DNA from: Prosopocoilus inquinatus
Taxonomy: Eukaryota > Arthropoda > Insecta > Coleoptera > Lucanidae
Reading direction: 5' to 3'
Assembly: GCA_036172665.1 (NCBI GenBank)
Contig: JAYKNF010000015.1
Coordinates: 3,162,001-3,226,000, forward strand
DNA length: 64,000 bases
In this document: piece after piece, positions 9,201 through 58,661 of the stretch
How the letters are laid out: every line of letters starts with the position of its first letter
Numbering within the stretch: position 1 is the first letter of the stretch
Notes under the pieces: generated by a model
What the model was told of the DNA's origin: nothing
Seen by the model: only the letters and a program-made list of their open reading frames with translations
Database searches by the model: none
Position numbers and translations under genes: made by a program

Positions 9201-12200
9201 GTTTTCATCATTACTTGAGGAAGTGTTTCTTATTGTAATTTTCACTTTTGACGTTTAATTTTTAGGAAAATTTTGTGCAAATCGTTTTTGATTGCAGTGA
9301 GAACCTCGAGCAGCCTCTGGACAGCTGTTTCAGCCCTGCTTGGGGCTTCTTCAGCAGAAACGTAGCTCGACATTCCCACTGCAGACCAAAAACGACTTGC
9401 ACAATTTATTCGAAAATGCGATGTAAGAATGATGAACATATAAAATAGCGACATCTTACTATCGCTTGTTGACCTAACATTGCAGTAGGATAGACAAATT
9501 GAAGCGGGATTTGCTCCTAATGAGTCCCCCATGCAAGGCGGCCATGCTTGCTGTCAAAGCATAATGAAAGATTTTAGAAAAATTTAATAAATTGTGCAAG
9601 TCGTTTTTGGTCTGCAGTGGGAATGTCGAGCTACGTTTCTGCTGAAGAAGCCCCAAGCAGGGCTGAAACAGCTGTCCAGAGGCTGCTCGAGGTTCTCACT
9701 GCAATCAAAAACGATTTGCACAAAATTTTTCTAAAATCTTTCATTATGCTTTGACAGCAAGCATGGCCGCCTTGCATGGGGGACTCATTAGGAGCAAATC
9801 CCGCTTCAATTTGTCTATCCTACTGCAATGTTAGGTCAAAAAGCGATAGTAAGATGTCGCTATTTTATATGTTCATCATTCTTACATCGCATTTGCGAAT
9901 AAATTATGCAAGTCGTTTTTGGTCTGCAGTGGGAATGTCGAGCTACGTTTCTGCTGAAGAAGCCCTAAGCAGGGCTGAAACAGCTGTCCAGAGGCTGCTC
10001 GAGGTTCTCACTGCAATCAAAAACGATTTGCACAAAATTTTTCTAAAATCTTTCATTATGCTTTGACAGCAAGCATGGCCGCCTTGCATGGGGGACTCAT
10101 TAGGAGCAAATCCCGCTTCAATTTGTCTATCCTACTGCAATGTTAGGTCAACAAGCGATAGTAAGATGTCGCTATTTTATACGTTTAATTTTTACTTTGC
10201 CGGATATTTGTAATGTTTCTTGTGGTTAGGTATATTTTTATTTACCGTGCAATTATGCGTTTATCTTCTTCAGCGCATTCTGCATTTATCTTGTTCTGTT
10301 AACACTTCTTTTTTCATAAATGAAGTTGAACACCTAGATATTCCATTATATTTAGCTCTTCCCCTCGAGTCTAATTTACAAAAAGTGCGCAAAAACTGTT
10401 TTGACCGTGTAGTTACTATGACAACGTGACTGCATTGCAAATGATTTGCAATTTGCAACGTCGGTAATGACTTGTAAGTCCTTTTTCGTGAATGATCAAC
10501 TGAGAATAATTAATAATTAAACTTCAATACATTTTCTTATTTTTCGTAATCACGTTGCTATGGCGAAGTTGTTTAATTATTCGACTTATTTTCGATCTGT
10601 CAAAAAGCAATTTTCATTTCTTGATTATTCCATTACTCGAAGTATAATTTTTTTTTTTTTTTAATTTTACGTGGATTGTTTTTTTATCCAGACTACACTT
10701 CTGTGCACTAAAATTAGGCACAATGAAATATTGCGGTTTAAAGAAAAAATATACATTATACAGAATAAAACACTAGAACAAGAACGGCCAAATGAAAACA
10801 TTAAAAGTGCCTTAAAAACTGAACCCTGATTTAAACGTTGGAATAAATATTAATGACTGTGCTTAAGATTATTGGAATAGGAATTAATACTGCTCTAATG
10901 TACCGACGCTCACAGAGCAAGTAAAGCGTTAAAAAAGGACAATATTAATTGCCCTAAGCACGTATTCGGCGATCATTCTGATTGTGACGTCTATTTTTGC
11001 ACCGGGTTCAAAGATAATGAAATTAATTCAGTTCCAGACTTAGTAGAATGTGGATTATTTCATGATATTATTGCTTGGTGTAATCATTTGACGCATAATG
11101 CACAGTTTACTTTTATACACTGAGAATCTTATAAGAATGCACATAGTATTCATCAATGGAAGCTTTATTACATTATTATTTCCAAATTTATTTTCTTCGC
11201 CATGGTTACCGTGCGTTTTTAGTAATGACACTACTGATTTAGAATTGTCAGATAGAATTAAATTGTTCTCTTGATTTATTGTAAAATGCATACAACCGCC
11301 GAAAAAGTAAAAATGTAGGTGCACGTTATTTTCAGATGAAGTTCATTGACAGAGGTCTTTGCGTTATTTGCCGCCAAATTTCCGGATAGATCAATTATTC
11401 CCTTCTTTAATACTTCCTATGTGCAATTTGTAAATGATTCAGCATTGAGAATTGAGTAGTAACTATAGCAACATAATGTTAAAACCTCTATGTGCAATTT
11501 TATATGATTCAGAAATGTATTATCTGATCACGTAATTTTCGTCTATGTGCAGCGTTACAAGATTCTCACTATATATGAACATTAATGCAGCGGAGACGTA
11601 CAATTCAATTGTTTCAAAATTTGTTGGTGGAACAAGAGTTAACTTCTCTTTGAAAAATAGTTACGAAGTGAGATGCCACGCTGCGAGCGTTTCTTATAAT
11701 TTCAGTGAGCAATATCACCACCGCATTTAAAGAGAATGGTCGGGAAAAGTCCAGGCAAATATACCAAAGTATACAGTGTGTCCGGATACGTAGGGACAGC
11801 ATGGGTCTGTCTTTGAAGAGATATAGAGATGATTAAAAAAGATGCAGGTTCGAGAGCTCATTAACAATCCATTTTCAAATATTACTTGTCATGGCCAACT
11901 TGGTTAAAATTTTACAAAAACCAAAATCTCCTAATTTATTTTATTTGCCGTAACTTTTTTGTTACTTAAGATATTGAGATGCGGTTTGAACTAGTTTGCA
12001 TGATAATTTAAGTACTTTTATGGGCACTTAATAAAACTAATCTCATTTTTACAAATTTTCAGTAAACTAACCTAACCTTAAAATTTTAAATTGGTACTCC
12101 CTAATTTTATTGGCCCTTTTAAGAGAGAATTTATTTCTGATATTATTGCTTGGTGTAAAAAAATGTTGTCCCTACGAAATCCGGGCACACTGTATACGTC

Positions 12201-15200: not shown

Positions 15201-18200
15201 GAAGAAAACTGGAAAGGTCTGACTTCCTTATTTAAAAATTACTGTTACGAATTTGGTGTTCACAAATTATAGTCGTTAAATTTCAGAACACTTTAATTTA
15301 AAGCTGTCGCTTTACACTATTAACAACACAATTGTAATGAGCTTGTCTATCAACTAACACTTTTACAAAATGTACTTTCTATTTATTCAAGGTACGAATC
15401 CTTCGCTCGCTAACTTCATAACTATCACTCCTGACGGATCTACGGCTTATATAGCAGAGCCCTCCGTTGCTCCAACATACTAGAATAATCGAGTAGTCTC
15501 CAGTCATGTTCTGTGACGCAAGGTGGCGTACTGATGCTAAAAATAGATCTGTTTGCGCGTGACGGCCGTAACACTGCCCCCCTCTTAGTTCTGTTCGTCC
15601 CGAATAGAGTACGGAACCAAACGGTCGATGTGGATCATTTTCATGTTCCTACGAGGTAGCTTTTGTATTCTATAGACCACATCATTGATCCTCTTAATTA
15701 TTTGATAGGGTCCATCCCAAGTCGCCTGTAGTTTGGGGCACAGACCACGAATCCTTCTGGGGTTGTATTAGCCACACCTGGTCTTGTTTCATTGGCTCGT
15801 CGATCGTAGCGGGTCTTCATTTTGTCTGTCGCCAAACTGATGTTACGTCGGACGTATTCGTGAGTGTTCATTAAACGGCGTTCGAGTTCTTGCGAGTATT
15901 CACTTCGTCCCAGTCGAGTTTCTGGTCGCCCAAATTTTAAGTCACAAGGCAGACGCATTTCTCTTCCGAATAAGACACTGTATGGAGTTCATTTAGTAGT
16001 GTCATGCTCTGCAGAACGATACGCCATCAGGAAAAGGGGAAGATGTTCATCCCACTCCCGTTGGTTCTTCGAAACAACTTTAGCCAGATGTCTTTCCAAA
16101 GTCCTATGGAAACGCTCCACCATTCCATCTGACTGTGGGTGTAAGGAAGTTGTTCGCGTTTTGAAAATGCCTAGTAACCTGGTTAATTCCTGGAAAATGT
16201 CTCCTTCAAAGCTGCTGCTTTGGTCGGAATGGATCTCCATGGGTACTCCAAATCTTGTTATCCAATTTTCTATCAAGGCATTCACAACGGTTATTGACTC
16301 TTGATTTGACAAAGCGTAACCTTCTGGCCATTTGGTGAAATAATCAGTCACTACCATAATGTATTTGTTTCCATGATTGGTTTCCGAAATTGGCCGGCTA
16401 TGCCCACTTCATCGGTAAAGGCGAAGATTCTTTTGTATTTTCGAAACAGTCCTCTTATGTCTTCTGTTTCGATGGGTGTTAACGATGTCGATACCTCTTC
16501 CAGCAATTTCTCTAGTAGCGGTGGTAGAGTGTCAGACTGATGCCGAGCGGATGCATCGTTTACTAGAATGTGGTTTACAGAAGCAATTGCTTCACATTTG
16601 CCCACCACCGTTCCGCTGGGTATGGTCACTGGGTAAATGTTGACATTTGCAAGACGAATAGGAATTGTTTCTTGGATCTTCACCAGAGTCTCAGCCAGTA
16701 AAATTCCTTTTTTTTCGCCGCTGTTGTCAATTGGCTCTATGATTCCGGCAGGATAGCTACCAAGATTGCTTTCCAACTTCGCCAGAATTAACTTATCGGT
16801 TAAGGCTGGAATGTTTATACTTTCGTCCAATATTACTTTTAGCACTGTAGATAGATTTCCAGGAACGTGGAGAGGTATTTCTTCAGATCCAATTCGTAGA
16901 ACTTTATCTTTTAAATCTACAACCAAGCCGTTTGTCCTCATGAAGTCCACTCCCAGTTTGAAGTCGTCAACAATGTCTGCCACTAACACCCTGTGTGTGA
17001 ATTTCATACTTCCAATCTTCATGTCAATTTCGGCTTCACCACAAACTGGAGTAACCTCGCCAGTAGCTGTTTGGATGTGATATGCCTTTCCATTATTTAC
17101 TAGCTTCCATTTTGGTAGAAGATCTGTTCTTATGATGGACACATTCGCTTCGGTATCAATTGTGAATTGGAAAGATGTCTCACCAATTTTTCAAATCTAC
17201 TATCAAGCTATTTTTATTGTTCCTTATCATGGAAATGGAGACCATCTTGAGGCTATCAGTAGGATCAGTCAGCATGCGCCCCTTCTTGCTGACTAGTTTT
17301 AGTTTAAAGACTCGCTGTCATCTTCTTGTCGCGCTCCTTTGCGCCGGCAGTTGGAACTCAAATGACCTGGTTTACCACGGTTCCAACAAGTTGTAATTCA
17401 TCTGTTATTGTTCATGGATTTCTTCTCTTCAAGGTGTTTCAGTCTTTCCAGGATTTCTGTTAGGGTACTCTTATCAGCAGCTTTCGCCTCTCGTACCCGT
17501 ACTAGGCTTTTAGATGCTTGCTTGGCCGCCTCGAATTCCAGTGTACGGGCCAGTACATCTGTGCATTTGGAGAAGTTACCCAACCGTAATACTTCGCCAG
17601 AATTAACTTATCGGTTAAGGGTGGAATGTTTACAGTTTCTTCCAATATTACTTTTAACACTGTAGATAAATTTCCAGGAACGTGGAGAGGTATTTCTTCA
17701 GATCCAATTCGTAGAACTCCTATCTTTTAAATCTACAACCAAGCCGTTTTTCTTCATGAAGTCCACTCCCAGTATGAAGCGTCAACAATGTGTCTGAATT
17801 TCATACTTCCAATCTTCATGTCAATTTCGTCTTCACCACAAATTGGAGTAACCTCGCCAGTAGCTGCTTGGATGTGTTATACCTTTCCATTATTTACCAG
17901 CTTCCATTTCGGTAAAAGATCTGTTCTTATGATGGACACATTCGCTCCGGTATCAATTGTGAATTGGAAAGATCTCTCACCAATTTTTCTATCTGCTATC
18001 AAGCTATTTTCATTGTTCCTTATCCAGGAAATGGAGACCATCTTGGGACTATCCGTAGGATCAGTCAGCATGCGACCCTTTTTGTTGACTGATTTTAGTT
18101 TAAATGCTCACTGTCATCGTCTTGGCGCGCCCGTTTGCGACGGCAATTGGAACTCACATGACCTGACTTGCCACAATTCCAGCAAGTTATGATTCGTCTG

Positions 18201-21200
18201 GGACTGATCACCTTCTCTTCCAGCTGTTTTAATCTTTCAAGAACTTCTGTCAGTGCACTGTCATCACCAGCTTTTATTTCTCGTACTCTAGTACGGATTT
18301 CTGTTAGGGTACTCTTATCAGCAGCTTTCGCCTCTCGTACCCGTACTAGGCTTCTAGATGCTTGCTTGGCTGCCTCGAATTCCAGTGCACGGGCCAGTAC
18401 ATCTGTGCATTTGGAGAAGTAATACTTGTTGCATTTCCTGATCTCTAATGCCGTCGATGAATGCTTGGATGGCCAAACGATGAAAAACTGGTTCAGGTAA
18501 GGAATCTCCATATGCCATGCGTACCAGGCTCTCAATGTCGAATTCAAACTCTTGAAGTGACTCATCATTTTTCTGGGTACGAGTTTTCAATTGGATGGTA
18601 TGGAGTTGCTTCATGTGTGCATCACCAAAGCGCATTTTCAAGTTCTCCACCAGTTGATCAAAGTTGTTCCGTACTTCCTCGGGAATGGACTGTAATGCAC
18701 TCAATGCTGGACCTCGCATAGCCAAAACGAGTGCTACAGCTCTGTCGCAGTCATTCCAGCCATTCACGTCAGCAGCAATTTGAAACTGTCAGATGAAAGT
18801 AGACCAAGGTAAGTCGCCTTCAAATTTAGGTGGTTTCAGTTTCTGATTTGACGACGCAGACGATGGTGTAATCGAACGACCTAGTCCCACTTTATGCAGT
18901 CATTTCGCTAAGTCTTCAAATTTATTTTGGAACTGAAGTTTTATTCCACCAAATTTCTCATCAAGTTTATCGTAGAATTCAAATTTCATGATCTTAATTG
19001 TACTATCAAACTGATTTCGTACGCCTTCAATTTTCTCGTCACATTCGGTTTTAAGATCTTCGATCCTTTCGTCGATTTGCATCTTCATTTTTTCTATATT
19101 CAGATCGGTTTTGAAACTGTAAGTTTCCATTTTCATATCCAAACTTTCCATTTGTTTTCTCACTTCTTGCGTTTGCTCTTTTATATTTTCTTTCACTTCC
19201 TGTGCATTTCTAATTTCATATTTTCGTTACCTTTTTCCATTTTTTCTTTCACTTCCTGCATTTCTAATTTCATATTTTCGTTACCTTTTTCCATTTTTTC
19301 TTTCACTTCTTTCAGTAGAGCTACTACGTCTTCAATTTCAAATTCAAATGTTTCCAGGTCTTTACCTTCATTTATAAGAGCTTGTTTCAGCCGTTCTTGT
19401 AAACCGCTTTTCTTTCCCGAATTTTCCAGGCCTCTTTCTTCTAATTCCTCACGCAGCTCTTTCAGTTTTAAGTCGCAGAGCTTCATTCTTGAAATTTCCG
19501 CTTCTGACACCAATTTGTTACGAATTTGGGGTTCACAAATTATAGTCGTTAAATTTCAGAACACTTTAATTTAAAGCTGTCGCTTTACACAATTAACAAC
19601 ACAATTGTAATGAGCTTGTCTATCAACCAACACTTTTACAAAATGTACTTTCTATTTATTCAAGGTACGAATCCTTCGCTCGCTAACTTCATAACTGTCA
19701 CTCCTGACGAATCGTACGGCTTAAGGCACTCGATCTCTGTCTAAGAACACAGGTACTGCCATCATATGGTTTAGACACTTGACAGTGGGTATTTGACCCT
19801 GAACAAGCGGGTTGTCAAAAATGACAAACTGAATATTTTATGAACATATAAAATAGCGACATCTTACTATCGCTTTTTGACCTAACATTGCAGTAACTGA
19901 AACAGCTGTCCAGAGGCTGCTCGAGGTTCTCACTGCAATCAAAAACGATTTGCACAAAATTTTTCTAAAAAAAAAATTTTTCTGAATATTTTATGTAAAT
20001 CAGAACGCAAATTTAACGCAAATCATTTTAATTTCTATGTTATTAACGACAAGAATAAGTTTACAATCAACAAGGAATAAGTTTACAATAAATCTAGACA
20101 TTAACGGTGCGATTAGGACACAATAAACCGAAAAAGTAACCAAACGTAGATACGTGAGTATATTAAAAGCTTTTCAGGTAAAATATTAAATTTACATACA
20201 TCCCGAAACTATTTCAAGGCATAAATCTCTAAACAGTTAACCATAGAAATAGAAGTTTCAGTAATTTAGCTGTTAACTTTGAAATTAAAAATTGTTGACT
20301 GTTTGTAATTTTCCATCATGTTCCAAGGGTAAGCTATTAGATTCTGGATAATGGCACTCGGAAAATAATTGGATTTAGCGAATTCCAAAAAAATTTAGGA
20401 TGAAAATGAGCTTTAGGATCCGGTCCAAAAAAGCGTAGGTAATACCGGACAAAAAGATATTTTTTAGGCAGAACTTCCCCATTTATTATGTCATATCGCC
20501 TCGTAGTTGCTTAGTTTTATTATAAATTTATACTTTGTCTCCATAAAATGGAAATTGAAACTATTTTGCGTTATTTTTCATCTTGATTTACATAAAATAT
20601 TCCAGTTTTTGTCATTTTTGACAACAGATTTGTTCAAGGTCAAATACCCACTGTCGCGTGTCAAAAACATATGATGACAGTACCTGTGTCTTTAGACAGA
20701 GATCGAATGCCTTAGTATGGCTTATATAGCAGAGCCCTCTGTTGCTCCAACATACTAGAATGATCGAGTAGTCTCCAGTCACATGTTCTGTCACGCAAGA
20801 TGGCGTACTAATGCTAAAAATAGATCTGTTTGCGCGTGACGGCAGTAACATTACTATACTATTTACAAAATACATTTCCTAAAAGTACCTTTCAGAAGAA
20901 ACCAATTCTTCGAAAAATTCCGATCTTAAGAAATGGCGAAGATAAAAATTTAAAAGCTATTCGAAAGGGCGAAAATAAGATTGATTTCATACAAACCAGT
21001 GCGTTTGATGCTTTACTACAGTTATTTTTAGCAAGTTCAATAGATTCTCCATATTTAAAAAAAATAGAATTCAGAAATATTCAGACACTATTCTTTTTAA
21101 TAATATGATGAAAAAAAGTTGCAGAACATGGCATAATATCTGGATCATATCGCCTTCGGGCTAATATATAGAGCAATTTATTTACAGAAAGTGGAAGTAA

Positions 21201-24200: not shown

Positions 24201-27200
24201 GGATAAATTTCAGTCAACGTCAAGCGTATCAATCACGATGCTCAGCAGCCGTAGTTTCTTATAATACAAAAAGGCCATTGTATACATTACAAAAGTCCCT
24301 ATTGTGTTTAAGCCCTAAATCGAAATCGAAAATGTTGGAAGAAAAACGATTGAGAAAAAATATCCTTAATAAAAAAATACTCGCGTGTCAAGAAGACTCA
24401 ATTTTAAAAGAAAGTCATGTAGTGATGAACACTATGGTGATAACTGTCAACGACCGGATTTACCTGAAAATGATTTGGAAAATTTGAAAAAAACCTTGTT
24501 ACAAAATTTAGTTAAATCAGATGAAGACAGATCTCATATACAAAAAGCGACAATTTTGCAGAGATTGTAGTGAATGGCTTGAGCTACGTAGGCAACTGAT
24601 AACAGCTTCGAACTTTGGAAGGATTATTAACAGACGGACTACTACCAGTGCTTCTATTGTAAAATCGTTGTTATATAAATCTAGTATTTCACATGTTGCA
24701 TCCATAAAACACGGAATAGACAATGAAAAAATTGCTCTTGAACAGTTATCCACAAAACACGTACTCTAGAAATGAAAGTGAATAAGCGAATTACAAATAC
24801 CAGTTTGTTGCTGCTTGCACCCGTTGGGTGGCGCTGACTGAAATCGGAAGGTAAGGTAGAAGGGGATCCCACATTTAAAATTTCAGAAATGTCAAATTGA
24901 CGCATAAAATTCCACACAGTAGATACGCAAAGGTGTAAAAGAAACTAAACGTTGAACATTGAAATGTTGAGTAAAGGAAGGGTAGCTAAATGTTGCATCA
25001 ATGCATGTGATGATTTTTGCAGCAAGAGACATCGTTTTCCTAAAAATGAACCGGAAATTTTTAAAAAGTGGTTGAATAATGTAAACAGTTGTGTTTTGAA
25101 AGACAAATCGCCCGAGTACATATACAAAACGTATTATGTGTGCAACAGACATTTTGAAGAAAATGATATCGTACCTGGAACACGAAGAGGATTAAAAAAA
25201 ATGCTCTGCCAACTTTATTTTTAAATAGTAAGTGGCAGATGGCTACATGTCTCAATCATAAAACATTTTACTTTTCTCAGAAAATATAACTTCAGTGATT
25301 CCAACAACTTCTGTTGTATCAACTAGAAAAATGCTTCTGCAACACTCCACGTCAACAGAACCTGATGTTTAAATTAAAAATTTAAATTATTCTCCTAATT
25401 GCACATACATAAACATTTTTGGGATTAATTGTAATCTGCCTAATCGGTGTTAAATATGGATAAAATTTTGCCTAAAAAGTAGAAAAGGTTTATCTAATTT
25501 GCCGTTATTGTTGTTTTTTTCCGACTAAATTGTGTCTAAAGGTGAGTATTTACTCCAACAACGATAAGATGTAGTCCTACTTTTACATGGTGAATATGCA
25601 AACTCCGTTTGTTTTAACTCCACATATGGATGGACGCGACGGAACACCAAATTTATTTTTATTTATTATTTTTTTTATTCTGTTCGCTCTGAAAATATCA
25701 GGAGACATTTCTGAACCGTCTTGTACTTACAGGCTTGCATCGTTTAATTCCAATTTTTTTTGTGCAGCTCCTTTAATATCAAGAAACGCATACGATGTTG
25801 GTTTAGCGAATTATCACAAACATGTGGAACTTAAAGATCCTACCCAAAATTATATGGAAAAAGCAAATTTACAATCTTCGCTTTCATGTATGTATCTACA
25901 GCACACATCTACAGTTACTGTAAAAGAATGAATGACCTTCATATCCAAATTAGCAGATTATGTTTATGTTAATAAATAATACCAATATACTTTCTTCTTA
26001 TTATAGGTAAACGTAAGCGTCCATCAATATTATAGCACGTTGGTTGCACACGAGCTAACCAGCTTACTCCAGCTGCCAGAAAGTTACACCAAATTGTTCG
26101 ATATTGGAGAAAGAAAAACGCTAGTTTACAATATCGGCTGCGGTCATATCGTAAACGACTTAAAGATGCTTTGGCTCTAGCTAATTCTTCACAATGTGCA
26201 AACCTTTGGAATCATGTTAATGCAACCACTTACAAATTCATTATGCTACAAGTAAGAAATCAGCATCGAAAGCCAAGATCTCGAAGATTTACCTTACAAG
26301 AGAAAATCCTAGCCCTAACGTTACTAAAAGCAAGTCGTCGCGGATATAAATTACTTTCGAAAATATTTTGCTTACCTTCACCAAGAACATTAACAGAATT
26401 GTTAAACAAAATACCTTTCAGCCAGGCATTAATGAACAGTTGGTCACAACATTGACAGAAACTGTTCAAAAAATGACTAAAAGAGATCGAAATTGTTCTG
26501 TAGTCTTTGATGAAATGACTATAGCAAGCTTGCTGCAATATCAGCGAAGGGATGATATTATTGAAGGATTCGAGGATGTGGGAACAAGGAGGAAACCTTT
26601 ATTAGCAGATCATGCAACAGTATTTATGCTGAAAGGTAAATCTAAATTCATTTAATATAATAATAGTAATAATAATTTTACCTAAGGTCTGTATCGGCAG
26701 TGGAAGCAGCCTCTAATGTATGCGTTCACTAGTGGACCTATGAAATCAGTTGATTTGAAGTGCTGCCTTAAAGAAGTCATCTGCACATGTCAGCGTATGG
26801 GATTAATAGTAGTTGCTACAATTTTCGACCAGAGCACTACAAACCAAACCACAATGAACTCCTTAGCGAAAGATACTGAAGAGCAATATAACAGGAATGG
26901 TTTGGAAAAGCGAACGTTTGGATTTGAAATTAATGGAATGGAAATTCTACCTCTCTATGATGTCCCACACTTAATGAAATGTATACGTAACAATTTACTG
27001 AGTAAAAATTTGCATTTTGTTCTCAATGGGCAAAAGAAAGTGGCAAAGTGGGACCATATTATCCAATTTTATCAATTAGACGCTGCAGATGACACACGCA
27101 TGTGTCCTAAACTTACGGACAGCCATTGTCTTCCTAACAAAATTAAGAAAATGAAAGTGTCAATCTGCATGCAAGTGTTTAGCCATCAAGTTGGGGCCCT

Positions 27201-30200
27201 CATGAAACGTCTTAGCAAAATGAGTATGTGTATGTCACTTTTTTGTGTTTAAAGTCTAAACTCGTTTTTTTTTTTAGATGTTCAATATGAGGACGTTACT
27301 TTAGATTCACAGGCAGAGGACACGGCAGATTTTATATTGTTTTTGGACACTCTTTTTGATAGTTTAAATGGTAACGCAAAAATCGCCCCAGTTAGTAAAC
27401 CGTTAAAAGGTGGAGTTTCCAGTGAATCAGGACACGTAAAATTCTGGTATTCTGCACTCCAGGTATTCCAATCGATGAAATTTTTTTCTAATGAGAAAAA
27501 GACATTTACCTACTGCGCTTCTGTTCAAAATTTCATTAAAACGTTAAATGGATTTCTGCATTTACAAAAAAAATTAGTTAGTGGAACCAGAACTTATTTC
27601 CTACCACGCAGTTTGAATCAGGATTGCCTCGAAAACTTTTTTGGGAGTATAAGAAGCCATGGAGCCCGAAACGTAACTCCGAGTGTTACTCATTTCGTAT
27701 CTTCATTTAAGTCGCTAATAGTTAACAACTTCATGGCTGTACACTCTCCTGGAGCAAATTGTACTGAAGACTTCACTAGCGGGGCACATACTTCCTCACA
27801 AGATATCCCAAACATAAATATTCCTGTTGCATATTTTCAAAAGAAAGTGTCATATGTTGCGAAGTGTACCACATTTTATGTAGCTGGTTACGTTTGCAAG
27901 AAACTTATTAAAGTTACAAACAATTGTGAAAACTGTAAACAAACTCTTCTAATGCGACACAACACTAACAGTACTGACTTAATAATTGAAGCCAGAGAGT
28001 ATCCAAATAGTAAAATGTGTAGACCAGGTACTTTTCTTCAATTCATTACCAGACAAGCTTTGTCCCAATTGTTTTTCCTAATACCTCGCCTTGTCACGCA
28101 CTTTCCTATAATTTCAATTCTGCAAAAGATTTTATTACAATCACTAAGTTTCCGACATGTCTTACAGTGTACAGTTCATAGCCATTTAGATATCATGGCA
28201 ATAAAAATTATTATTAAATGTGCTGTCTATTTTTGGGTTAAACGAGTTAATTTAATTTCCAAGGGACAAGATGAGAAATTTGTTTCATTTTTAAATCGTG
28301 GTGTAGATACACGTTTCATAGACCCTGTTAAACTTGCGGCCCACAAAAAAATTTTAAGCACAAAATCGCGTATGATTGCAGTTCGACGTAAAAAACAGTT
28401 ACAAGATTAATTACCTAAATTTACCTAGTTTTATTATTATTATTTTTATAAAATTTTACGGATTGTTAAGGCCAGTTTACATTATCCGATTTTGGATTCA
28501 ATTTTCAGTTTCGAGTAGCTCAAACGTGATATTTTTGCCTTTATACTATTCGATTTTCTTTTCGATACGCTAGTGTCATTCGAGACAAACTCGAGTATAA
28601 AATTGAACAAAAAAATCAAACATAAAAACCGAATAATGTAAATTAGCCTTTAGTTATGACGACCTTATATTATACATTACTAAAAATAAAACGTATAAAA
28701 TAGCGACATCTTACTATCGCTTTTTGACCTAACATTGCAGTAGGATAGACAAATTGAAGCGGGATTTGCTCCTAATGAGTCCCCCATGCAAGGCGGCCAT
28801 GCTTGCTGTCAAAGCATAATGATTTAATTTAATTAAGCATTATGCTTTGACAGCAAGCATGGCCGCCTTGCATGGGGGACTCATTAGGAGCAAATCCCGC
28901 TTCAATTTGTCTATCCTACTGCAATGTTAGGTCAAAAAGCGATAGTAAGATGTCGCTATTTTATATGTTCATCATTCTTACATCGCATTTGCGAATAAAT
29001 TGGGCAAGTCGTTTTTGGTCTGCAGTGGGAATGTCGAGCTACGTTTCTGCTGAAGAAGCCCCAAGCAGGGCTGAAACAGCTGTCCAGAGGCTGCTCGAGG
29101 TTCTCACTGCAATCAAAAACGATTTGCAGAAAATTTTTATAAAAATAAAACATTTAGTTGGGTATCTATTAGTTTTATCGTTGTCAATTTGTTAATATTC
29201 ATAAGGTCTGTTAGTTTGCTGCACTAGTGCACACTCAAAGTGTCTTCATTTCATAATAATGTAAAAGATATTGTCTACGTTTTAACAGATTAAAAATTAA
29301 AAGTCCCTTTAACGTATAGAAATAGAAAAGGTAAATGGGATCTTTAATTTTAAGCCTCCGTTAAAGCGTTGATAATACTTTTCAATACGTTTCATACTTC
29401 TAAATTTCATTTCATATTTTAAAGTAGGCGCGCTTACAAGCTTAGTTCTGCTTGCATCCACCAGCGCCGCTAGTGTCAACTAAATTTCAGCGTCATTCAC
29501 GGCAGTTTCATTTCTAGAGTGCATGTTCTATGACAGTTATCGCTGCAAGAAGACGTGACAATTGACCCTTGCGGATTATTCATTGATGGTGAAATTCCAT
29601 ATTTAGGCGCTACACCGGAGGGGGTTGATAGAAGGTGATACAATAGTTGAGGTAAAGTGTCCAATATCAGCTTATAAAACCTCGTTAGAAGAAGCCATTC
29701 GGAATAAAAAAATTAGATTTTGGAACATGAAGAATGAAGAAATGGTAATAAATAAGAGGCATTGGTATTATCAAATTCAGGGTCAGCTCCATATTACCAA
29801 AAGAAAAATGTGCCTTTTTGCAATATGGTCCGGAGAAAAAAACTTTGAAAGTTGAATACATTCACCGCGATGACATTTTTTGGAAAAAGAATATGGTTGA
29901 AAAATTAAAAGTTTTTTACATTGACCAAATTTTACCAGAATTATTAGATCCCCGACACAAGAAATATGCCAATTAGAAACCCGATACAAAGTCAAACAAA
30001 AAAGCGAAAACGAACCGATATCACGATCCAGGTCCCCTCTACAGTTCTAAATAAGACATAAAATCGAAGTGTTATATTTAGTGTTATATTTTTTGATAAA
30101 AAATTGTACTTTTACATTTTGTAGTACTCAATAAAAAATAAAATATTTAGTAAAATCTTTTACTTTTTCAGCAGTATCTATATAAATTTAAATTTGGTAA

Positions 30201-36200: not shown

Positions 36201-39200
36201 AAGGGTAAGGGTCGCTGAGGTCCTGGAGGAAATTCAGGACGGTACGTCCGGTGGACATTTGGGCATCAACAAGACGTTGTCGAAAGTACGAGGAAAGTTC
36301 TACTGGGCGAAATGTAGAACTGATGTGGAAAATTTGTGTGCCAGATGTACTGCATGTGCTGCAGTATCCGGGCCCGCGAAAAAGACTCGCGGAAAATTAC
36401 ACACTTACAACGTTGGAGCACCATTCGAGAGGATTGCCATTGACATAGCCGGCCAATTTCGGAAACCAATCATGGAAACAAATACATTATGGTAGTGACT
36501 GATTATTTCACCAAATGGCCAGAAGGTTACGCTTTGTCAAATCAAGAGTCAATAACCGTTGTGAATGCCTTGATAGAAAATTGGATAACAAGATTTGGAG
36601 TACCCATGGAGATCCATTCCGACCAAAGCAGCAGCTTTGAAGGAGACATTTTCCAGGAATTAACCAGGTTACTAGGCATTTTCAAAACGCGAACAACTTC
36701 CTTACACCCACAGTCAGATGGAATGGTGGAGCGTTTCCATAGGACTTTGGAAAGACATCTGGCTAAAGTTGTTTCGAAGAACCAACGGGAGTGGGATGAA
36801 CATCTTCCCCTTTTCCTGATGGCGTACCGTTCTGCAGAGCATGACACTACTAAACGAACTCCATACAGTGTCTTATTCGGAAGAGAAATGCGTCTGCCTT
36901 GTGACTTAAATTTTGGGCGACCAGAAACTCGACTGGGACGAAGTCAATACTCGCAAGAACTCGAACGCCGTTTAATGAACATTCACGAATACGTCCGACG
37001 TAACATCAGTTTGGCGACAGACAAAATGAAGACCCGCTACGATCGACGAGCCAATGAAACAAGACCAGGTGTGGCTAATACAACCCCAGAAGGATTCGTG
37101 GTCTGTGCCCCAAACTACAGACGCCTTGGGATGGACCCTATCAAATAATTAAATCAGTACACCAGCTTGCGTCACAGAACATGACTGGGGACTAGTCGAT
37201 CATTCCAGTATGTTCAAGCAATAAGAGGCTCTGCTGTATAAGCTGTTACCGTTCAATTTCTGTCCGTCCCAGAGACACCCTGTACAGTGAATTTCTTTCG
37301 ATTAACCGCCCTGAGTGTAACTCTTCGCGTTTCGTTTGCATGCTTTCATTGTCTCCTTGGCATAGCGAATTTCCCTGTGAAAATTAGATTGAGGAAAGTG
37401 AGTTTTGAAAGTTAATTTACGGCAAAGTTGCTTTTTCATTTAGAATTTTTAAGAGTAATGAAAAGTGGTGCAATAGGTCGTAATCGGGAAAAAAATCACA
37501 TGGCGTGTCTGTGCAGGAATTGACTCCTGATATTTGGAGCCCATTGGTTGATGTTGACATAAGATTCTGCAGCGGTTGGAGTACACATCTCGCCTCTTCT
37601 TTTCTCATACCCCGTTTCTTTTCACGCGTTATTTCGGAGCGAAATCAGAAAATCATTCCCGCTAATTCCCTTGAAGTGATAGCACTTATTGTTTGTGGGT
37701 GGTGAACCCGTTTTGTTCAAGTGTGTTTCCTCAGTTTTGTTTGGTGAAAACTTAAGTGGCTAATTCGCCGGAGTTTTGTGCTGCCCAAAAGATTATTAAT
37801 GCCATTGCATTTCCTACGCCTGTTCCCCAAGTAGCTTTGTGAACAGATGAGTTCACTCTTAGGTGTTTTGATTCGCTTCGAACGTTTCTATCGTGTACTT
37901 TTCTTCCTTACAGGCTTTACTTATTTATTTAATTTTTGATCTACGTATTTATTGGTGGATCTATTTTTCCCGACTGTTACTGTCTCGTAGATTTTACGCT
38001 GCATCCAGCGCATGTTGGATTTTATTCCTATTGTTTTGTTGTTTATGTATTGACCTGGGTATTTGATTGTGACAATTTGTTTACTGTTCTCTGTATTTAA
38101 TAAAGTTACATTGTTGTAAATATTGTGGAGGAGTTGCGTTTTCTTAGTTTTCCCCCGTAGCAAAAAAAAGTTAAGTGGCGCCTTTATCTTTCCTTTCGCG
38201 AAGAGTTTGAGAGAACCAACCCTAACCCACTGGGGCTAGCCGGCGACGCCGAAACGTCTGTCACGGCGATCACTTGTGAATACCTGAGCAGATAGGTAGC
38301 AAAGCCGTACAATCCGCCAGGAGTAGTTAGTTATGAAGTTAGCGAGCGAAGGATTCGTACCTCGAATAAATAGAAAGTACATTTTGTAAAAGTGCTATTT
38401 GATAGACAACCTCATTACAATTGTTGTTAATTGTGTAAAGCGACAGCTTTGAATTAAAGTGTTCTGAAATTTAACGACTATAATTTGTGAACCCCAAATT
38501 CGTAACAATACATGTAAACATTAATACCTCACATACTCTTAAATAAAACTTTTTGGTTAGTACTCGATATACGTACTTTCGAAATATGAAAAAATGTACT
38601 GAGTGTTCCATTAAAAAAAAATATAACTTTGGTATGGCTCACAGTTACCAAACACCCTGTATACCCAAAAATAATTTCATAAAATAGAACTGACTGATTT
38701 GCACCTTAGCTCGTTTGATTTTTTTTCTATCTTGTGTTCTTTAGACAGAGAAGTTCGCGGCACTCGGTGGACACCTGCATATGGCTCATCACTAAAGACG
38801 ATCTTAAACGAAGTAAGTCACGTCTATGAATACATAACAACTTAAGAAATTCTTAAATATATAAGATGAACTTACATAAGACGGTCTTAAGCAATTGCTT
38901 AAGTCATGGCTATGAATACTGCCCAACTTACATTTAAGTGTTTTTTTAAAGAAATACATATTAAAATACCTGATCGGCATCAACGAAAATAATTTTTCTA
39001 ACGTCCAAAGGAAACAGCACGTCCAGAAACAATATTTTATACCCCCAAATAATTCTCTGCTTCTCTGTCTGTTGATGCAACCACCTGGGCCATTTATATT
39101 GGACCAGTTCATATTCAAAACCATATTCCTTGGCCATATAAGGCAAGAAATTCTGCAAAACAATTTTTTACTGACGAAAACAAACTTTCAAAAACTCATA

Positions 39201-42200
39201 CCATTATTTGTGGTGATAGATAGTTCTTCAAAAACCAAAACTTGACAGATGTTTTTGTATGCTTCAACACAGACAGCATCATAATTCGCAGGAACCGTTC
39301 ATACAAGTGGCCTGACGCCAAGGAAAATATGTTCAGCTTCTCTTCGATCTCGTCATCCGTTGAGCTAAAGGAACTTGAAGCACAGCAAATTAATCAATCG
39401 ACATGAAAATCAGACGTGACAGTAATTAAAAAGCGCTATGAAAACAATATCTTTACCTTAGAATTCTGTGAGCATGCAAAAACATAAGTAAACTATAAAA
39501 ACATGCAAAAAAATGTTTTATTTCAAAGTACCTCGTGATAGAGTTCCAAATACCCATGCTGGGTTCATCTTCTGACAGCAGGTCCATGTGCACCTTATCC
39601 GGTTTCTTCGACACCCTCAATTTTACAATCTGTGATCTCAACGTACTTATTAGCACTTTAATATCAGGCGAATTTCGTGGTGTGTCAGAGCCCTCATGAC
39701 TGTGCAAAGAAAGACGAATTAATTGTGTAGAGGTATATCAAAAAGAAAATAAACTAAGACTTCATATGCGTGACGCAGAAAATACTTTTTAGACGAATTC
39801 TTTGCACTAAGCAAGGGATTTGTTGTTTAATATAAAACACAGCATTCATTAAAACAAATAGTACCGAATTATGACGGCTGAGAAAAGCTTCGTAAAGTTT
39901 TTTTTTAATTGTTGTAGATATTTCTCCAAAGCCTTGCTCCATTGGTTCATTATCACGTCCACTTCGGTACCTAAAACACTTTTCCTCAGTTGTAAGAACC
40001 ATTTTCAAAAAACAAAATAAATAGAATTGTCACTTTCGGTACTGTTTATTTCGGCGTATACTGTACTTCTTATCACAATTAACTTATTAACATACAGTGC
40101 GTCCTTGGTACATATTCTAACAGTCGAAATCTATCGGACCGGTTTCGGCAACTGCGCCTCCACGGTGGCTGTACGTAGACGTTGCAACGTCGCCCTATGT
40201 AACAGAAATGATCTCAGAGCACCAGTTGAAATGCTAACTTCTTATTCGTCTTTTACTTCAAAATTTTGACGTCGCCTTTTTCCAATGGTTCCGCTAAGTA
40301 ACGGGAAAAAAACCGGAAGTGCTGGGCTGGCTTCTCGCCGTTGTCGATACCGACACCGATCGAGTGAGGTTGTGCGTTATATTGTCTCGTGAATTTGAGC
40401 AGCAGTTATTGTTAACAAGATTCAACTCGTACAGTTCAACTGGCATTCGTTCAACTCGTGTCATCTAAGGTGCTAGATAGCATCTTAATCCAAACGATCT
40501 ATTCAATTAAGTTAATACGTTCCAAATTTAGTTATTAACAGCGTTATTTGACGTCATTTCTCCCTCCTTTTCATTTAGAATACTTTGAAAATTCTTCATT
40601 CGCTCAGTTTCGAGATACTTAAAAAAGATCAAATTCAATTTATACTAAACTATCAGTACGGCCTTGATCAATAAATGTTAAAATAAATTACTAGAAAAGC
40701 TTTTTCTATCAATCTTTTTCAAAAACGACTAGACTTATTAATTATCTGTCCAGTTTTCACTATTGTTAATCAAGGTTTTGCTGATAGTTTGGTTTAAATT
40801 GAATTTAGTTACAAAATCTTTTTTTAAATATCTTAAAACTCAGCGTATGAAAAATTCTCAAACTTCAAAAAGAGATTCATCTTGAAGAGTACTTTAAAAA
40901 ACCTAAACGGAATTTTCCTGTAAAATAATTAGGGAAGCCAATATTCAAGTACCTTTAAATTAACATGAGATTTCCTATGTTGCGTTTCAAAACGCAGCAT
41001 CCTGTATATCATATACCGTCTGTTTGATTATGAAGGCCCCGAGCTGTAACTCCTTTATTTTGTGCTCACCTTTCTAGAATCTTTATTTATTAATCGATTA
41101 ACTTGAATTTTGGAGACAATAAATTAAGCAAAATATGGAATTGCTAGTCGTCATAGGACTTCCGGTTTCGCCGGAAGTTATATCAACTTTCTAATTTTAA
41201 ACATATAAAATAGCGACATCTTACTATCGCTTATTGACCTAACATTGCAGTAGGATAGACAAATTGAAGCGGGATTTGCTCCTAATGAGTCCCCCATGCA
41301 AGGCGGCCATGCTTGCTGTCAAAATAAAATAAAATCTTTCTAATTTTAAATGGAACACCCTATATATTTTTACATATTTGAAATTTACCTTTATCAGATA
41401 AAATAGCGACATCTTACGATCGCTTTTTGACCTGACATTACAGTAGGATGGACAAATTGAAGCGGGATTTGCTCCTAATAAGTCCACCATGCAAAGCGGC
41501 CATGCTTGGAGGACTTGGGAGCAAATCCCGCTTCAATGTGTCTATCCTACTGCAATGTCAGGTCAAAAAGCGATCGTAAGATGTCGCTATTTTACCTGTT
41601 CATCAGTCTTACATCGCAATTGCGAATAAATTAGACAAGTCGTTTTTGTTTGCAGTGGGAATGTCGAGCTACGTCTCTGCTGAAGAAGCCCCAAGCAGGG
41701 CTGAAACAGCTGTACAGAGGCTGGTCGAGGTTTTCACTGCAATCAAAAACGATTTGCACAATTTTTTTCTAAAAACTTTCATTATGCTTTGACAGCAAGC
41801 ATGGTCGCCTTGCATGGGGGACTTATTAGGAACAACACCCGCTTCAATTTGTCTATCCTACCGCAATGTAAGGTCAAAAAGCGATAGTAAGATGTCGCTA
41901 TTTTATCTGTTAAAAATTTATCATTATGAGTCCGAATATGTATCAATTGTTAATTTTGGTTTCCATGACAACGAAAAAAAAAAAACTTTTTTATTTTTCA
42001 ATCTAGAAAGCTATGAATCGTAGTTTTTCGATCTAATGCGATCAAGTGTTTCGAGAAAATCACCCCTTTGATGGTATTTTTATTTTTAACATTTTTAGCA
42101 TGTCTTATTGAAATTTTACACTGCCTTTATTTCAAATGACTTTCAAAGAAAATATGATGTATTTGGTATCAACGTACTCAGAAAGAAATGTTCTATTAAA

Positions 42201-50353: not shown

Positions 50354-50463
50354 CTGAAATTTTTATGTACACATGTATATTCCGACACGAATTCGTTTAA
50401 ATTCAGCTGATTTATACAGACTGTCCAGAAAAAGTTGTTTACTACAGGAATTTCGCTTGTAAT

Positions 50464-50668
50464 TGTTGGTTGGCAGTGACGATAACACTTACTTCAATGT
50501 ATTTATTGCAAGAACTTTTTCAAAATTTTGCAATTACAAACTAAAGCTTGATGCATAGACTAGACGATACATATTAAAAAAAATATGACATAAACTAACT
50601 TGATTAAGTATGTATTTACAATACTCAAACAATATTGAATGACTGATTAAATGATTATAAACTCAACA
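50464..50668 (-). repeat. 3' LTR of copia element
   Basis: 205 bp, TGTTGGTTGG ... CTCAACA. Identical to the 5' LTR at 54707-54911 by direct reading. Confidence 0.93.
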
Positions 50669-50683
50669 CTTCCCCTTAATCTG

Positions 50684-53600
50684 TCATTCAAATTTAACAG
50701 TGCTCTTAAGTAATCCAAATCCATTCACGCAAAAATAATGTTTAGGAGAACTTAAGCCTTTTGTGAATACGTCAGCAATCATTTTATCTGTTGACTTATA
50801 ATGAACAGCAATTACACCTCTGTCAACAATGTCCCTAATAAAATGATATCTGACACTAATATGTTTAGTTCTATTATGAAAGATAGGATTATATACTAAT
50901 TTCTGTGAACTTTGATTGTCGTTGTACAAATCAATTTTAACGTCAAAACCTAGTTCACTCAAGAAGCTTTTCAGGTATACAGCTTCTTTTGAAGCTTCTG
51001 ACATAGCAATATATTCGGCTTCAGTACTAGAGAGAGCTACACAAGATTGTTTCTTAGCTTCCCAATAAACAGCTGTACCACTTAACGTGTACACAAAACC
51101 GCTGTAAGATTTGCGATCTTGATCATTTGCCCAATCAGAGTCTACAAAACCTGTAAGTTCAAATTTAAAATTACCATTGAATACAAGTTTAAAGTCAATA
51201 GTAGCCTTCAAATATCTCAAAATTCTTTTAAGATGATTCCAATGAACTTTACTATAACCATTATTAAACTGACTCATAAAATTAACGGCAAAAGTTATAT
51301 CAGGTCTAGTATTGACGGATAAATATAACAATGCACCTACAAGTTTTTGATAAGGAAGTGACAAATCTACATCATTACATTTTTCTAATTTTAAATTAAC
51401 TTCCAATGGTGTTTTTGCGGGTTTACAATCAAGCATGTTATATTTCCGCAGTAATGACAAAATGCATTTTTTCTGATGAATTGAAATTGTCTTCTTATCA
51501 ACATATCTCTCAATACTAATGCCAATACATTGTTTCGCCTCTCCTAAATCTTTAACTTTAAATCTTTCTGACAATAGTTTCCTTAACACTTGCTTCTCTG
51601 CGTTACTATTACAGAATATTAAAAAATCATCAACATACACTGTAATAATAACGATTTTGTCTTCGTTGTTTCTAATAAATACGCAAGGTTCGTACTTCGA
51701 TTGACTAAAACCTAAATCTAATAAAGTTTCAACAACCGTCACGTTCCAAACTCTGGAGGATTGTTTAAGGCCATATATTGCTTTATGCAATAAACAAACT
51801 TTATTTTCATTTCCAGGAGTTATGAAACCTTCAGGTTGTTCCATAAAAACCTGTTCTTCTAAATTTCCGTTAAGAAATGCTGTCTCTACATCAAAGTGAA
51901 AAATATTTAAATTCATTTTTGCAGCTATTCCAAACAGAATTCTTAACGTTGAATTTCTAACGACTGGGGAAAAAATTTCATGGTAATCTTGGCCAAATGT
52001 TTGTGTAAATCCTTTAGCAACCAATCTTGCCTTATGTTTCATTGAACCATCTGGCAAACTTTTTAACTTAAACACCCACTTGTTTTTAACTACACTTTCA
52101 TTTGCTGGCCTCTTCACTAGAGTCCATTCCTTATTATCCATTAAAGACTGAAATTCACTTTGCATGGCTGCTTTCCACCCATCACTATCGTCACGTGTCA
52201 GTGCATCCTTGACATCAATGGGGTCGTCTGCTTCTGCCATGTACACTACATATTCTGGATACTCTTTTGATTTCTTCAGCCTGAGTGACCTTCTTAATGT
52301 GCCTTCTTCAGTGATACTTCTGTCAATTGTTTCTTCAGCAGGCTCTTCTGGTTCTATCATGTCTTTTGCATCCTCTTCAAATTCAATTCCATCTGATATG
52401 TTTTCTTCAGTATCAATAATGTTTCGGTTAATAGGTATTACATTAGTCTTGTTATTTGCAATATCTTCTTTTTTGTTCCAAAATTTGTTTTCTATGAATC
52501 TGACATTTCTTCCCTTTGTTATTGCCTTTGGTTTTTCTGGATTAAATAGCCTGTAGTCTTTTGTATCTTCACAATATCCAACAAAAAATATATGGTTTTC
52601 CTTTAGCATCCCATTTTCTTCTAAACTGATCGGGAATATAATTGTAACAGATACATCCGAAGATACGCAAATGACTCAAATTAACCTTTCTTCCTGACCA
52701 CAACTCCTCAGGTGTTTTGCCAGGAATTGCCTTATGGGGAGAACGATTCTTGAGATAAGCCGCAGTATTTACAGCTTCTGCCCACATTCTTTCATCACAA
52801 CCAGATTCCTTGATCATACTTCTCGCCATTTCAGTTAAGGTTCTATTGGTCCTTTCTGCAATACCGTTTTGTTCAGGGTTATATGGCACAGTAGTTTGAT
52901 GCTTTATACCCTTTGACTTCATGTATTCTTCCATGACTCTGTTTGCGTACTCTCCGCCGTTATCAGATTTAAGACATTTTACTTTTCTTTCTGTCTCTCT
53001 TTCTACTTTACTCACAAATTCTGGGAAAATATCTTTGACATTATCTTTACTCCTTATAAAATATACGAATATTTTTCGAGTAAAATCATCAATAAAGGTA
53101 AGTACGTACTTTGCACCATTCCAAGACGCACAGGGCATTGGTCCACACAAATCTGAGTGAATTATATCTAGAACGCCTTCTGCTCTTCTGTTTTTATTTT
53201 TCTTGAAGGGTAATCTTGCTTGCTTTCCTTCAATGCATGCTATGCAAGGTTCTGATTTTGCATTAGAAAATTTAACACCTTCTGCTAAACCATTTTTAAG
53301 TAAATTCATACTAACACGGTTTAAATGTCCTAATCTTAAGTGCCAAATTATGTCATCCTGACTGTTAGTGTTTGCTGAATAACAGGCTTCATCATTTTTT
53401 GTGCTAATTTTAAATAGCCCATCTTGACGAATACCTTCGATGATTGTAGTTCCATTGATATTACAATTTTTATCATCAAGAACTTTACATCCATATTGAT
53501 TAAAAATGACAGTGAGACCTTTTTGCACCATTTGTTCGACAGACAATAAGTTTGTCTTCAGTGAAGGTACATGAAGCACATTCATCACCTCATTTTCTCC

Positions 53601-54618
53601 ACCACGCGTAATTATTTTTACATTACCAACACCATCACTATTTATGCTTGCATTGTTCGCTACAGTTACTTTTAAATCTTTTCTGGAGAAGTTACATAGC
53701 CAATCCTTTCTACAAGTCATATGTGCTGTTGCACCAGAATCGACAATCCATTCCTCTGATTTATCTACATTTGCATTCAGGCAAATATGCAAAGCTTTAT
53801 TATTATTAGGCTTGAAAGGACTTATGACTGTTTTGTTTTTCTCCTTTAATTTATTCATGGGACATACATTCTTAAAATGACCTGGTTGCCCACACTTGTA
53901 ACAAACCATTTTCTTTTTGTTTTGCGGATGCTTTTTGACATGCAATGCTGATTCGCTGCTGGTAGATGGTAAAGCTTCAATATTTTCTTTGTGTTCTTGT
54001 AAAAGTTTTGACTTCACAAAATCACTTGTTATTTTTTGACCGCTGCTTTCAATAGCCATGACCATAGGATCATATGCAGACGTTAGACCACTTAGCATGA
54101 TAACTGCCACAAATTCATCGTCCAAACCTGCTTCCATATCTGCTAATCGCTGCGACACTGCAATGATTTCACTGACATACTGGTCCATATTTGCAAAATT
54201 CACCAATTTTATACTGGCAATACGACGCATTAACGTTAATCGCCTGGTGAGACCTCTGTCATCATACACTTTTTGTAAATTTTCCCATGCTTCTTTTTTT
54301 TTTTCTTTTCTTTTTTGCTGTTTTACAATCCCTTACGAACGGGTAGGCACAAGGTTTAATCATCAAGCATATTTTTGCTAATGCTTTCTGCTCCTTCCGA
54401 AATCGTTCGTCTGTCGATAGTTTACTGTCATCGCCTTCTATGCATTGCCACAAATTGTCATGTATTAAAGCCATTTTCATCCCAAATTTCCAGTTTGCAT
54501 AATTGGATCTTCCTTCGAGTTTCTCGAAACTTACTTGAAAATTGTGATTGTCACTCATTTTTACCGAGTAAAGCAATTTACAAAGTTCAAAGTAAATTTT
54601 GTTTCGTTGACACTCCAC
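50684..54618 (-). CDS. Copia Gag-Pol polyprotein (two homopolymer frameshifts)
   Basis: Gag begins near 54561 (MSDNHNFQVSFEKLEGRSN). A frameshift lies in the A-run at ~54290-54305, after which KVYDDRGLTRRLTLMRRI follows. Zinc knuckle CYKCGQPGHFKNVC (~53900), protease WIVDSGATAHM, integrase HLRLGHLN plus IIHSDLCGPM and the DDE core (VKCLKSDNGGEYAN, YNPEQNGIAERTNRTLTEM). A one-base shift in a T-run at ~52585 precedes the RT frame (52609-50684): KARLVAKGFTQTFGQDY, YGLKQSSRVWN, VYVDDFLIF with the YVDD box, RNase H FVDSDWAND and SSTEAEYIAMSEA. All catalytic motifs are present. The frame breaks could be sequencing errors in homopolymers or real recent lesions. Confidence 0.92.
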
Positions 54619-54706
54619 GTTGCAACCGCGTTGACGTTTTTTAAATATACTTTTTCGTACACTATTTTCTTAATTTGAGGCAAACCTTGTATCTGGGCCC
54701 ATAACC

Positions 54707-54911
54707 TGTTGGTTGGCAGTGACGATAACACTTACTTCAATGTATTTATTGCAAGAACTTTTTCAAAATTTTGCAATTACAAACTAAAGCTTGATGCATA
54801 GACTAGACGATACATATTAAAAAAAATATGACATAAACTAACTTGATTAAGTATGTATTTACAATACTCAAACAATATTGAATGACTGATTAAATGATTA
54901 TAAACTCAACA
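54707..54911 (-). repeat. 5' LTR of copia element
   Basis: 205 bp, identical to the 3' LTR. The primer-binding site occupies about 54690-54706 on the minus strand. Confidence 0.93.
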
Positions 54912-55140
54912 GTAATTAAAGTTAAAATGGAGCCTATTTTAAGGTTGAATTAAATGAATGGTCAAACTGCACGAAACCACAGATTAACTTACAAATGCGA
55001 AGGCTTCGGGCAGTACCTTTGATGTCGCGTGGCAAGAATCTGTAACCTTCATCATTGTTCAGATGGTTGGTAAAGTGCGAATTTTGAAAATTGCGGCGTA
55101 TTGCAGTATTCGATTTCTACATACAGCTTTAATAAATTAA

Positions 55141-56333: not shown

Positions 56334-56814
56334 TTAAGTCGAATACACCTTTAATCAATAAGCTATTTTGATCAACGAATAAAGATACCAATGAAAGTGC
56401 CGTGAAATCATTTGATTATTGACAGTTACTACCTGATTAATAAACAGCCTAAACAATGGCGGCATGAAAAATGACGGGAATGTCTTTGCATCTATATTAG
56501 TAATCTGTGCCGAAATCGTCTAGTCAATGGTCAGACCAAAGCACCTGACCACCACTCAGCGATTGGGAAAACTGAGAGCCATACCAAATTTATATTTTTT
56601 TAAATGGAACACTTAGTATATTTTTACATATTTCGAAAGTAGGCATAAAGAGTAGGTAATAACAAAAATGTATAAAAAGTTGCTCTACTTTGGCTCTTAT
56701 AGTTTGATTATTTATGTACATTTAATCGCGATTTTTTTTAGCTAGTCAATACAATATCTCGTCTACAAAAATTTCACAACAGATTCAATCTATTAGTTAT
56801 TATGTGTACAGTGT

Positions 56815-58080: not shown

Positions 58081-58100
58081 GTTAATATTGAGTTTTTAAA

Positions 58101-58650
58101 AAAATTTGTGCAAATCGTTTTTGATTGCAGTGAAAACCTCGAGAAGCCTCTGTACAGCTGTTTCAGCCCTGCTTGGAGCTTCATCAGCAGAGACGTAGCT
58201 CGACATTCCTACTGCAAACAAAAACGACTTGTCCAATTTATTAGCAAATGCGATGTAAGAGTGATGAACAGGTAAAATAGCGACATCTTACGATCGCTTT
58301 TTGACCTGACATTGCAGTAGGATAGATAAATTGAAGCAGATTTGCTCCTAATAAGTCCCCCATGCAAGGCGGCCATGCTTGCTGTCAAAGCATAATGAAA
58401 GTTTTTAAAAAAATTGTGCAAATCGTTTTTGATTGCAGTGAAATCAATTATGCTTTGACAGCAAGCATGGCCGCCTTGCATGGGGGACTTATTAGGAGCA
58501 AATCTGCTTCAATTTGTCTATTCTACTGCAACGTCAAGTCAAAAAGCGATCGTAAGATGTCGCTATTTTACCTGTTCCTATTAAACTAATTTCTCTTACA
58601 CCGCATTTGCGAATAAATTGGACAAGTCGTTTTTGTTTGCAGTGGGAATG
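58101..58650. mobile_element. Hammerhead-ribozyme retroelement, copy E (head-to-head)
   Basis: A minus-strand monomer with ribozyme (58101-58399), the start of a second minus unit (58400-58440), then a plus-strand unit (58441-58650) that stops just before the ribozyme. The plus unit carries CTATTAAACTAATTT at 58577-58591, a stretch also present in the host repeat (57077), so template switching or gene conversion is likely. Target duplication not identified. Confidence 0.8.
58138..58204 (-). ncRNA. Type I hammerhead ribozyme (copy E), canonical CUGAUGA box and GUA triplet
   Basis: On the minus strand: GUCGAGC..GUCUCUG, CUGAUGA, stem II AGCUC/GGGCU (one U-G pair), GAAA, minimal stem III, GUA, then CAGAGGC. 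Cleavage is predicted between 58153 and 58152. This copy has the most common N7 base (U) of natural hammerheads. Confidence 0.83.
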
Positions 58651-58661
58651 TAAAAAAATAT

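Follow-up and report, generated by a model that had tools for sequence, protein, structure and literature searches.

Animal non-LTR retrozymes carry a type I hammerhead ribozyme in low-GC tandem repeats of about 300 bp, are also reported in insects, and are flanked by target site duplications (TSDs) of more than 4 bp (Cervera and de la Pena, 2020, PMC7229834). The enzyme that mobilises them was left open in that paper, in which Penelope-like elements (PLEs) residing in the same genomes are only "a strong candidate" (PMC7229834). PLEs with a GIY-YIG endonuclease occur as head-to-head copies with an optional tail of about 31–40 nt at one end and a hammerhead in the repeat; they prefer AT-rich targets, and both strands are cut and extended in vitro (PMC3846280, PMC11167929). 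Animal retrozymes, including those of insects, head-to-head PLEs and the PLE tail are already known, and the repeat described here resembles the retrozymes in its unit and the PLEs in its insertions. The pDo500 family of Dolichopoda cave crickets is likewise an insect repeat with a hammerhead but, unlike the present one, is listed as satellite DNA (PMC2837043).

The window, a 64-kb stretch from the beetle Prosopocoilus inquinatus, contains a repeat with a confirmed tandem period of 312 nt, whose reference unit (u1–u312) lies at window positions 9586–9897 on the plus strand and has 42.9% GC. The repeat is dispersed in the 650-Mb assembly, where 40 of 155 candidates were scored and gave 118 matched stretches, and many copies are 98–100% identical. 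The sequence-only reading had proposed a non-autonomous dispersed hammerhead repeat of retrozyme type, "active or recently active"; the type I motif, the 312-bp tandem units and the dispersed copies support the first part, and the many nearly identical copies support recent activity. As expected of a retrozyme, the hammerhead is of type I with an intact core (its Rfam match being below the gathering score), the unit falls within about 150–450 bp at low GC, the TSDs exceed 4 bp (mode 12), an abundant GIY-YIG PLE is present in the same genome, and no reverse transcriptase or transposase is encoded, the longest frame round the tandem unit being 103 aa. With such a frame the unit is too short for the reverse transcriptase and GIY-YIG domains of a PLE; the repeat behaves as a template of the PLE kind without being a PLE itself. 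The tandem unit at 9586–9897 has one plus-strand frame interrupted by just one stop in 104 codons, leaving 103 aa open, which may be due to chance. Our main reading, to which we give a probability of roughly 0.74, takes the 312-nt repeat for an animal retrozyme: a Penelope-like enzyme would have copied its predicted RNA circle into cDNA, primed by the two 3′ ends of one staggered chromosome cut, each end using its own preset site.

The hammerhead motif of the reference unit spans 9625–9692 (u40–107, plus strand) and is recognised by pattern search, by a family model (R1), by its conservation and by an Rfam match on a short stretch. CUGAAGA occupies u57–63 and is followed by a 5-bp stem II, GAAA at u80–83 and C17 at u91, placing the predicted cleavage site after 9676. 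Stem III has only 2 bp and is located inside the palindrome ACAGCUGU (u83–90). Pattern search and R1 recover all eight window copies at the positions first reported for them: that of the reference unit, its neighbours at 9304–9371 (minus) and 9937–10004 (plus), and the more distant copies at 29033–29100 (plus), 31863–31930 and 32175–32242 (both in a plus arm), 41663–41730 (plus) and 58137–58204 (minus). The CTGANGA box reads CTGAAGA in seven and CTGATGA in one; R1 scores 92.8–103.4 bits at all eight, a result that holds by construction because the model was built from the same repeat family. In an alignment of 132 genomic copies that cover the motif, 2 cells are changed at the 12 core positions, whereas the change rate per cell is 0.92% elsewhere in the ribozyme and 1.5% for flanking sequence; core bases thus do not mutate as freely as the flanks, whereas equal freedom would have told against the initial proposal. 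Among the 132 copies N7 (A/T/C) and H17 (C/A) vary, and both positions are left free in hammerheads. This well-kept motif is very probably a ribozyme.

Models and folding give a more mixed picture. On the whole 64-kb window Rfam returns no hammerhead match, either at the gathering threshold or at E ≤ 10. Hammerhead_1 (RF00163) does match when a 121-base stretch is presented alone (23.8 bits, E 0.00048), a score below the gathering score of 34, so that the covariance-model hit named as a check in the initial proposal exists on the short stretch only, and there below the cut-off. Microrna-family Rfam matches in the window were set aside because their scores are below gathering and the best ones lie inside the inverted arrays. 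The earlier statement that stem I variants keep pairing also stands in part: in 29 of the 33 variants from the 132-copy alignment, 97.4% of stem cells are paired in the given register and at most 45.2% when partners are slid, the changes being one-sided; column shuffles also give 97.4%, and none of the 29 variants tested carries a two-sided, covarying stem change. For the isolated motif an alternative fold is predicted at −27.6 kcal/mol, against −21.6 kcal/mol for the hammerhead, a gain in stability of 6 kcal/mol. Through the palindrome ACAGCUGU, two copies could form a longer stem III in common. According to the title of a 2017 paper, Penelope hammerheads reportedly cleave better as dimers. 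Better cleavage as dimers is likewise described for salamander hammerheads with a short stem III (PMC7229834). The exact ribozyme core has 0 matches in viral contigs and 0 in genome contigs, both sets holding few or no animal genomes.

Three insertions in the window have clean ends and a TSD. The intact one at 9265–10180 is arranged head to head, a minus arm followed by plus arms, between 14-bp matching TSDs at 9251–9264 and 10181–10194. A short insertion at 19843–19981 lies between 14-bp matches (19829–19842 and 19982–19995), and another at 28693–29139, with the hammerhead copy at 29033, between 12-bp TSDs (28681–28692 and 29140–29151). The remaining three are truncated or damaged: a plus arm at 31864–32285 with two hammerhead copies and no TSD found, a composite at 41200–41911 and an insertion at 58091–58651 (ends at 58091 and 58577), the last two with one hammerhead copy each and no convincing TSD. 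The outer ends fall at two places in the unit, site A at u147–152 (9732–9737 in the plus-strand reference unit), presumably a start of reverse transcription, and site B at u286–292 (9871–9877, plus), whose role is likewise presumptive. The first insertion has A on the left and B on the right, the second and third are B/A, the truncated arm retains A, the composite has B ends on both sides and the last is A/B.

The same arrangement, which the initial description missed in treating the arrays without their inversion and fixed ends, is seen beyond the window. The unit was mapped on the window and on 37 genomic regions fetched around the best matches to one unit, so the sample is biased toward such matches. 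Arm orientation changes from minus to plus 48 times and from plus to minus 3 times (in L014, L019 and L025, each apparently the product of several insertions); the typical insertion is a minus arm and then a plus arm. Outer ends cluster at A (u~147–152) and B (u~286–292). Of 50 mapped clusters, 41 have both ends classified, as A/B in 21, B/A in 18, B/B in 2 and A/A in none, giving mixed ends in 39 of 41; one of the 39 (L009) duplicates the first element of the window. Of the two B/B clusters, L019 consists of two abutting insertions, each mixed by a less strict end listing, and the other is the damaged window copy (41395–41911). Nine clusters have one end unclassified, among them L021, in which a single arm was mapped. 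Inner junctions are variable, with microhomology of at least 3 nt in 26 of 46, compared with 6% expected from random joins, and arm length varies from less than one unit to over 7 units (L020, which runs out of the fetched region on both sides). Read from these copies, retrozyme arrays are mostly head to head with two preferred outer ends. Animal retrozymes, in contrast, are described as tandem repeats from dimers to multimers, and the available portions of that account mention neither head-to-head arrays nor two fixed ends per insertion, nor a TSD of 12 bp accompanied by a target motif, nor a target in common with a PLE (PMC7229834).

A script finds a TSD of at least 11 bp in 39 of 42 retrozyme elements, exactly 12 bp in 20 (the mode); one of the 39 (L025, 15 bp) is spurious, the match lying inside element sequence. 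Deliberately mismatched left–right pairs give a TSD-like match of at least 11 bp in 5 of 252. The empty site follows the pattern AAC[12 bp]GTT, the bases before the TSD being A in 26, A in 28 and C in 20 of 38 half-sites (19 sites counted in both orientations). One old copy (L033:18–526), with arms 83.0 and 86.8% identical, has a 12-bp TSD and ends A and B in the end listing, the left end being unclassified under stricter anchors; the insertion habit is therefore not new. At L019:2019–3265 the abutting insertions have a single copy of the duplicated target, AAAAATATTATC, in common, a pattern that would fit two uses of the same site.

A search of the genome for GIY-YIG gives 150 scored matches of 2232 candidates, with open frames of up to 788 aa. 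Neighbouring matches less than 10 kb apart (n = 48) are minus-plus in 47 cases and minus-minus in one, with no plus-minus and no plus-plus pair. The protein read from L053 contains RVT_1 and GIY-YIG domains; its best named relative, among 120 listed, is from the beetle Tribolium (52% identity), and a comparison with solved structures gives 0 matches. L053 and its kin qualify as PLEs by having reverse transcriptase and GIY-YIG in one frame, a tail and a hammerhead, the last recognised by eye only: the motif was read in the 3′ region of L057, together with the palindrome AUACGUAU, and has no match in Rfam. R1 has no match in the PLE loci searched and therefore provides no link between the two hammerheads. 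Ends were read for 44 pairs (40 as 141-base stretches, plus L054–L057), of which 42 could be scored. In all 42 one end carries a tail of 37–38 nt and the other is tailless, with 21 in each order. All 42 also have TSD matches of 11–17 bp, exactly 12 in 15 (again the mode), and only 3 of 1722 mismatched pairs reach at least 10 bp. At the exact 12-bp sites the outward flank resembles GTT (G 18, T 18, T 19 of 30).

As judged from these copies, the PLE and the retrozyme of the same genome share insertion geometry, TSD length and target flank, and the tie to PLEs is stronger than the sequence-only reading could see. No sequence shared by the two was detected; the retrozyme repeat, unlike PLEs, matches no PLE protein-coding part. 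The TSD mode of 12 differs from the 8–10 bp of rotifer Penelope elements (PMC3846280). Some PLE-related copies merit separate mention. A retrozyme copy with ends B/A (L047:2006–2467) lies less than 500 bases from a GIY-YIG-like frame of 84 aa. The only minus-minus PLE pair (G000:C2:41411689–41418268) has starts 2,604 bp apart, which suggests a tandem of a PLE unit of about 2.6 kb.

In the mechanism that we propose, the hammerhead would cut the repeat RNA, which would then close into a circle. A PLE-type endonuclease would make a staggered cut in the chromosome, leaving 3′ overhangs of about 12 nt, and the top-strand and bottom-strand 3′ ends would both prime antisense cDNA on one circular ribozyme RNA, one cDNA starting at A and the other at B. 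Tandem units would arise by rolling round the circle. The two antisense cDNAs would finally meet and anneal by short homologies, and repair would give a palindrome flanked by the 12-bp TSD. The mechanism fits an in vitro report on an anole PLE, in which both target strands are cut and extended and synthesis begins within the PLE RNA at two adjacent sites (PMC11167929). Against a strict rule, the start site does not differ between the strands in that system, and its cut motif is ATT, which differs from the GTT flank found here; ribozyme mutants have no effect on insertion, so the ribozyme is not needed (PMC11167929). Strict use of one site per end is not stated for known PLEs in the available portions of these reports (PMC3846280, PMC11167929).

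The predicted 312-nt circle is far more stably folded than shuffled sequences (−116.9; 100 shuffles, mean −75.2, sd 4.7). Its fold consists of two domains with an unpaired linker on either side connecting them, A lying in one linker and B in the other. Computed from a tandem trimer, the mean unpaired value is 0.73 at A and 0.71 at B, as opposed to 0.33 overall. In the PLE the tail between the two start sites folds as a stem-loop, but start 1, unlike A and B, is paired in the single fold made, which makes the structural parallel only partial. By eye, the order common to both is hammerhead, about 50 nt, start 1, structured spacer, start 2. Arm segments cross the predicted cut site in 84 of 109 cases and are longer than one unit in 60 of 109. 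The cut site itself, at which insertions from a linear monomer template should end, is not enriched among ends (3 of 109 vs 2.4 expected). Together these observations make a linear cleaved monomer an unlikely template; a circle and an uncut multimer would both fit. The difference between units is 0.67% for those of the same arm, 0.55% for those in the two arms of one element and 1.85% for those of different elements (1.19% within and 1.05% between arms without L020, which contributes about half of the comparisons). Of 42 multi-unit elements, 18 have one or more variants that are fixed in both arms, four in L030 and five in L028 for example; several such sites, however, are common polymorphisms, and two elements, L014 and L025, are mixed. 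The low difference between arms and the variants fixed in both suggest that a single RNA, or RNAs very similar to each other, served as template for both arms.

Other ways of producing such insertions are less probable. The same two-ended process might be run by a second PLE family or another retroelement instead of the sampled PLE, as the lack of shared sequence between that PLE and the retrozyme would allow, and L048, L050 and L051 do represent a PLE family with a different 3′ region; we nonetheless regard this as unlikely, since the sampled PLE, the family that the comparison covers, matches the retrozyme in TSD mode and target flank. The three copies of that second GIY-YIG family are 94–95% identical and have CTGANGA...GAAA motifs of their own. 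Slightly more doubtful still is fold-back self-priming, proposed for head-to-head Penelope copies in the rotifer Adineta vaga (PMC3846280), in which the end of a single cDNA, or of an antisense template, would loop back and prime its own copying to give a head-to-head repeat. A long self-complementary stretch in the unit (u7–46 with u100–138) could aid such folding, and the microhomology at inner junctions is also compatible with it, but it predicts equal outer sites, and the sites differ in 39 of 41 readable retrozyme clusters and in 42 of 42 scored PLE insertions, in both orders. A fold-back or MITE-like DNA transposon with a chance hammerhead-like motif, which inverted arms, dispersed copies and TSDs fit superficially, is very improbable: the outer ends lack terminal inverted repeats, A and B being no more alike in inverted comparison than shuffles (score 5.0; shuffles mean 5.19), inner junctions vary and show microhomology, arms reach more than 7 units, and TSD and target equal those of a retroelement, the PLE.

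Priming of a retrozyme circle from both ends of the cut by a Penelope-like enzyme, the reading we prefer, can be placed in a wider scheme that we hold with less assurance but still favour. Penelope machinery would carry out coordinated two-ended priming on a single RNA, each overhang having its own start beside a structured domain, so that every insertion is born palindromic; hammerhead circles would have evolved an imitation of the two-site signal that lets them travel with the machinery, and rolling round the circle would turn them into multi-unit inverted arrays. The pattern of one site per end would account for head-to-head Penelope structures and their optional tail, and makes a direct prediction for the published purified-enzyme assay (PMC11167929). 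The shared geometry, TSD and target flank would provide a genomic signature of the suspected link between PLEs and retrozymes, searchable in any genome. Our searches of the open-access literature turned up no report of retrozymes arranged head to head, of a two-end rule that they follow or of a target that they share with PLEs.

The window also contains other mobile elements. A Copia-type element at 50464–54911 has long minus-strand open frames (RVT_2, rve and gag) between two identical 205-bp repeats. Two inverted retroelement copies with RVT_1, at 15694–19569 and 32587–37152, are up to 99% identical over 709 bp. Frames at 26686–28410 include a TNP-like RNase H domain and point to a transposase relative.
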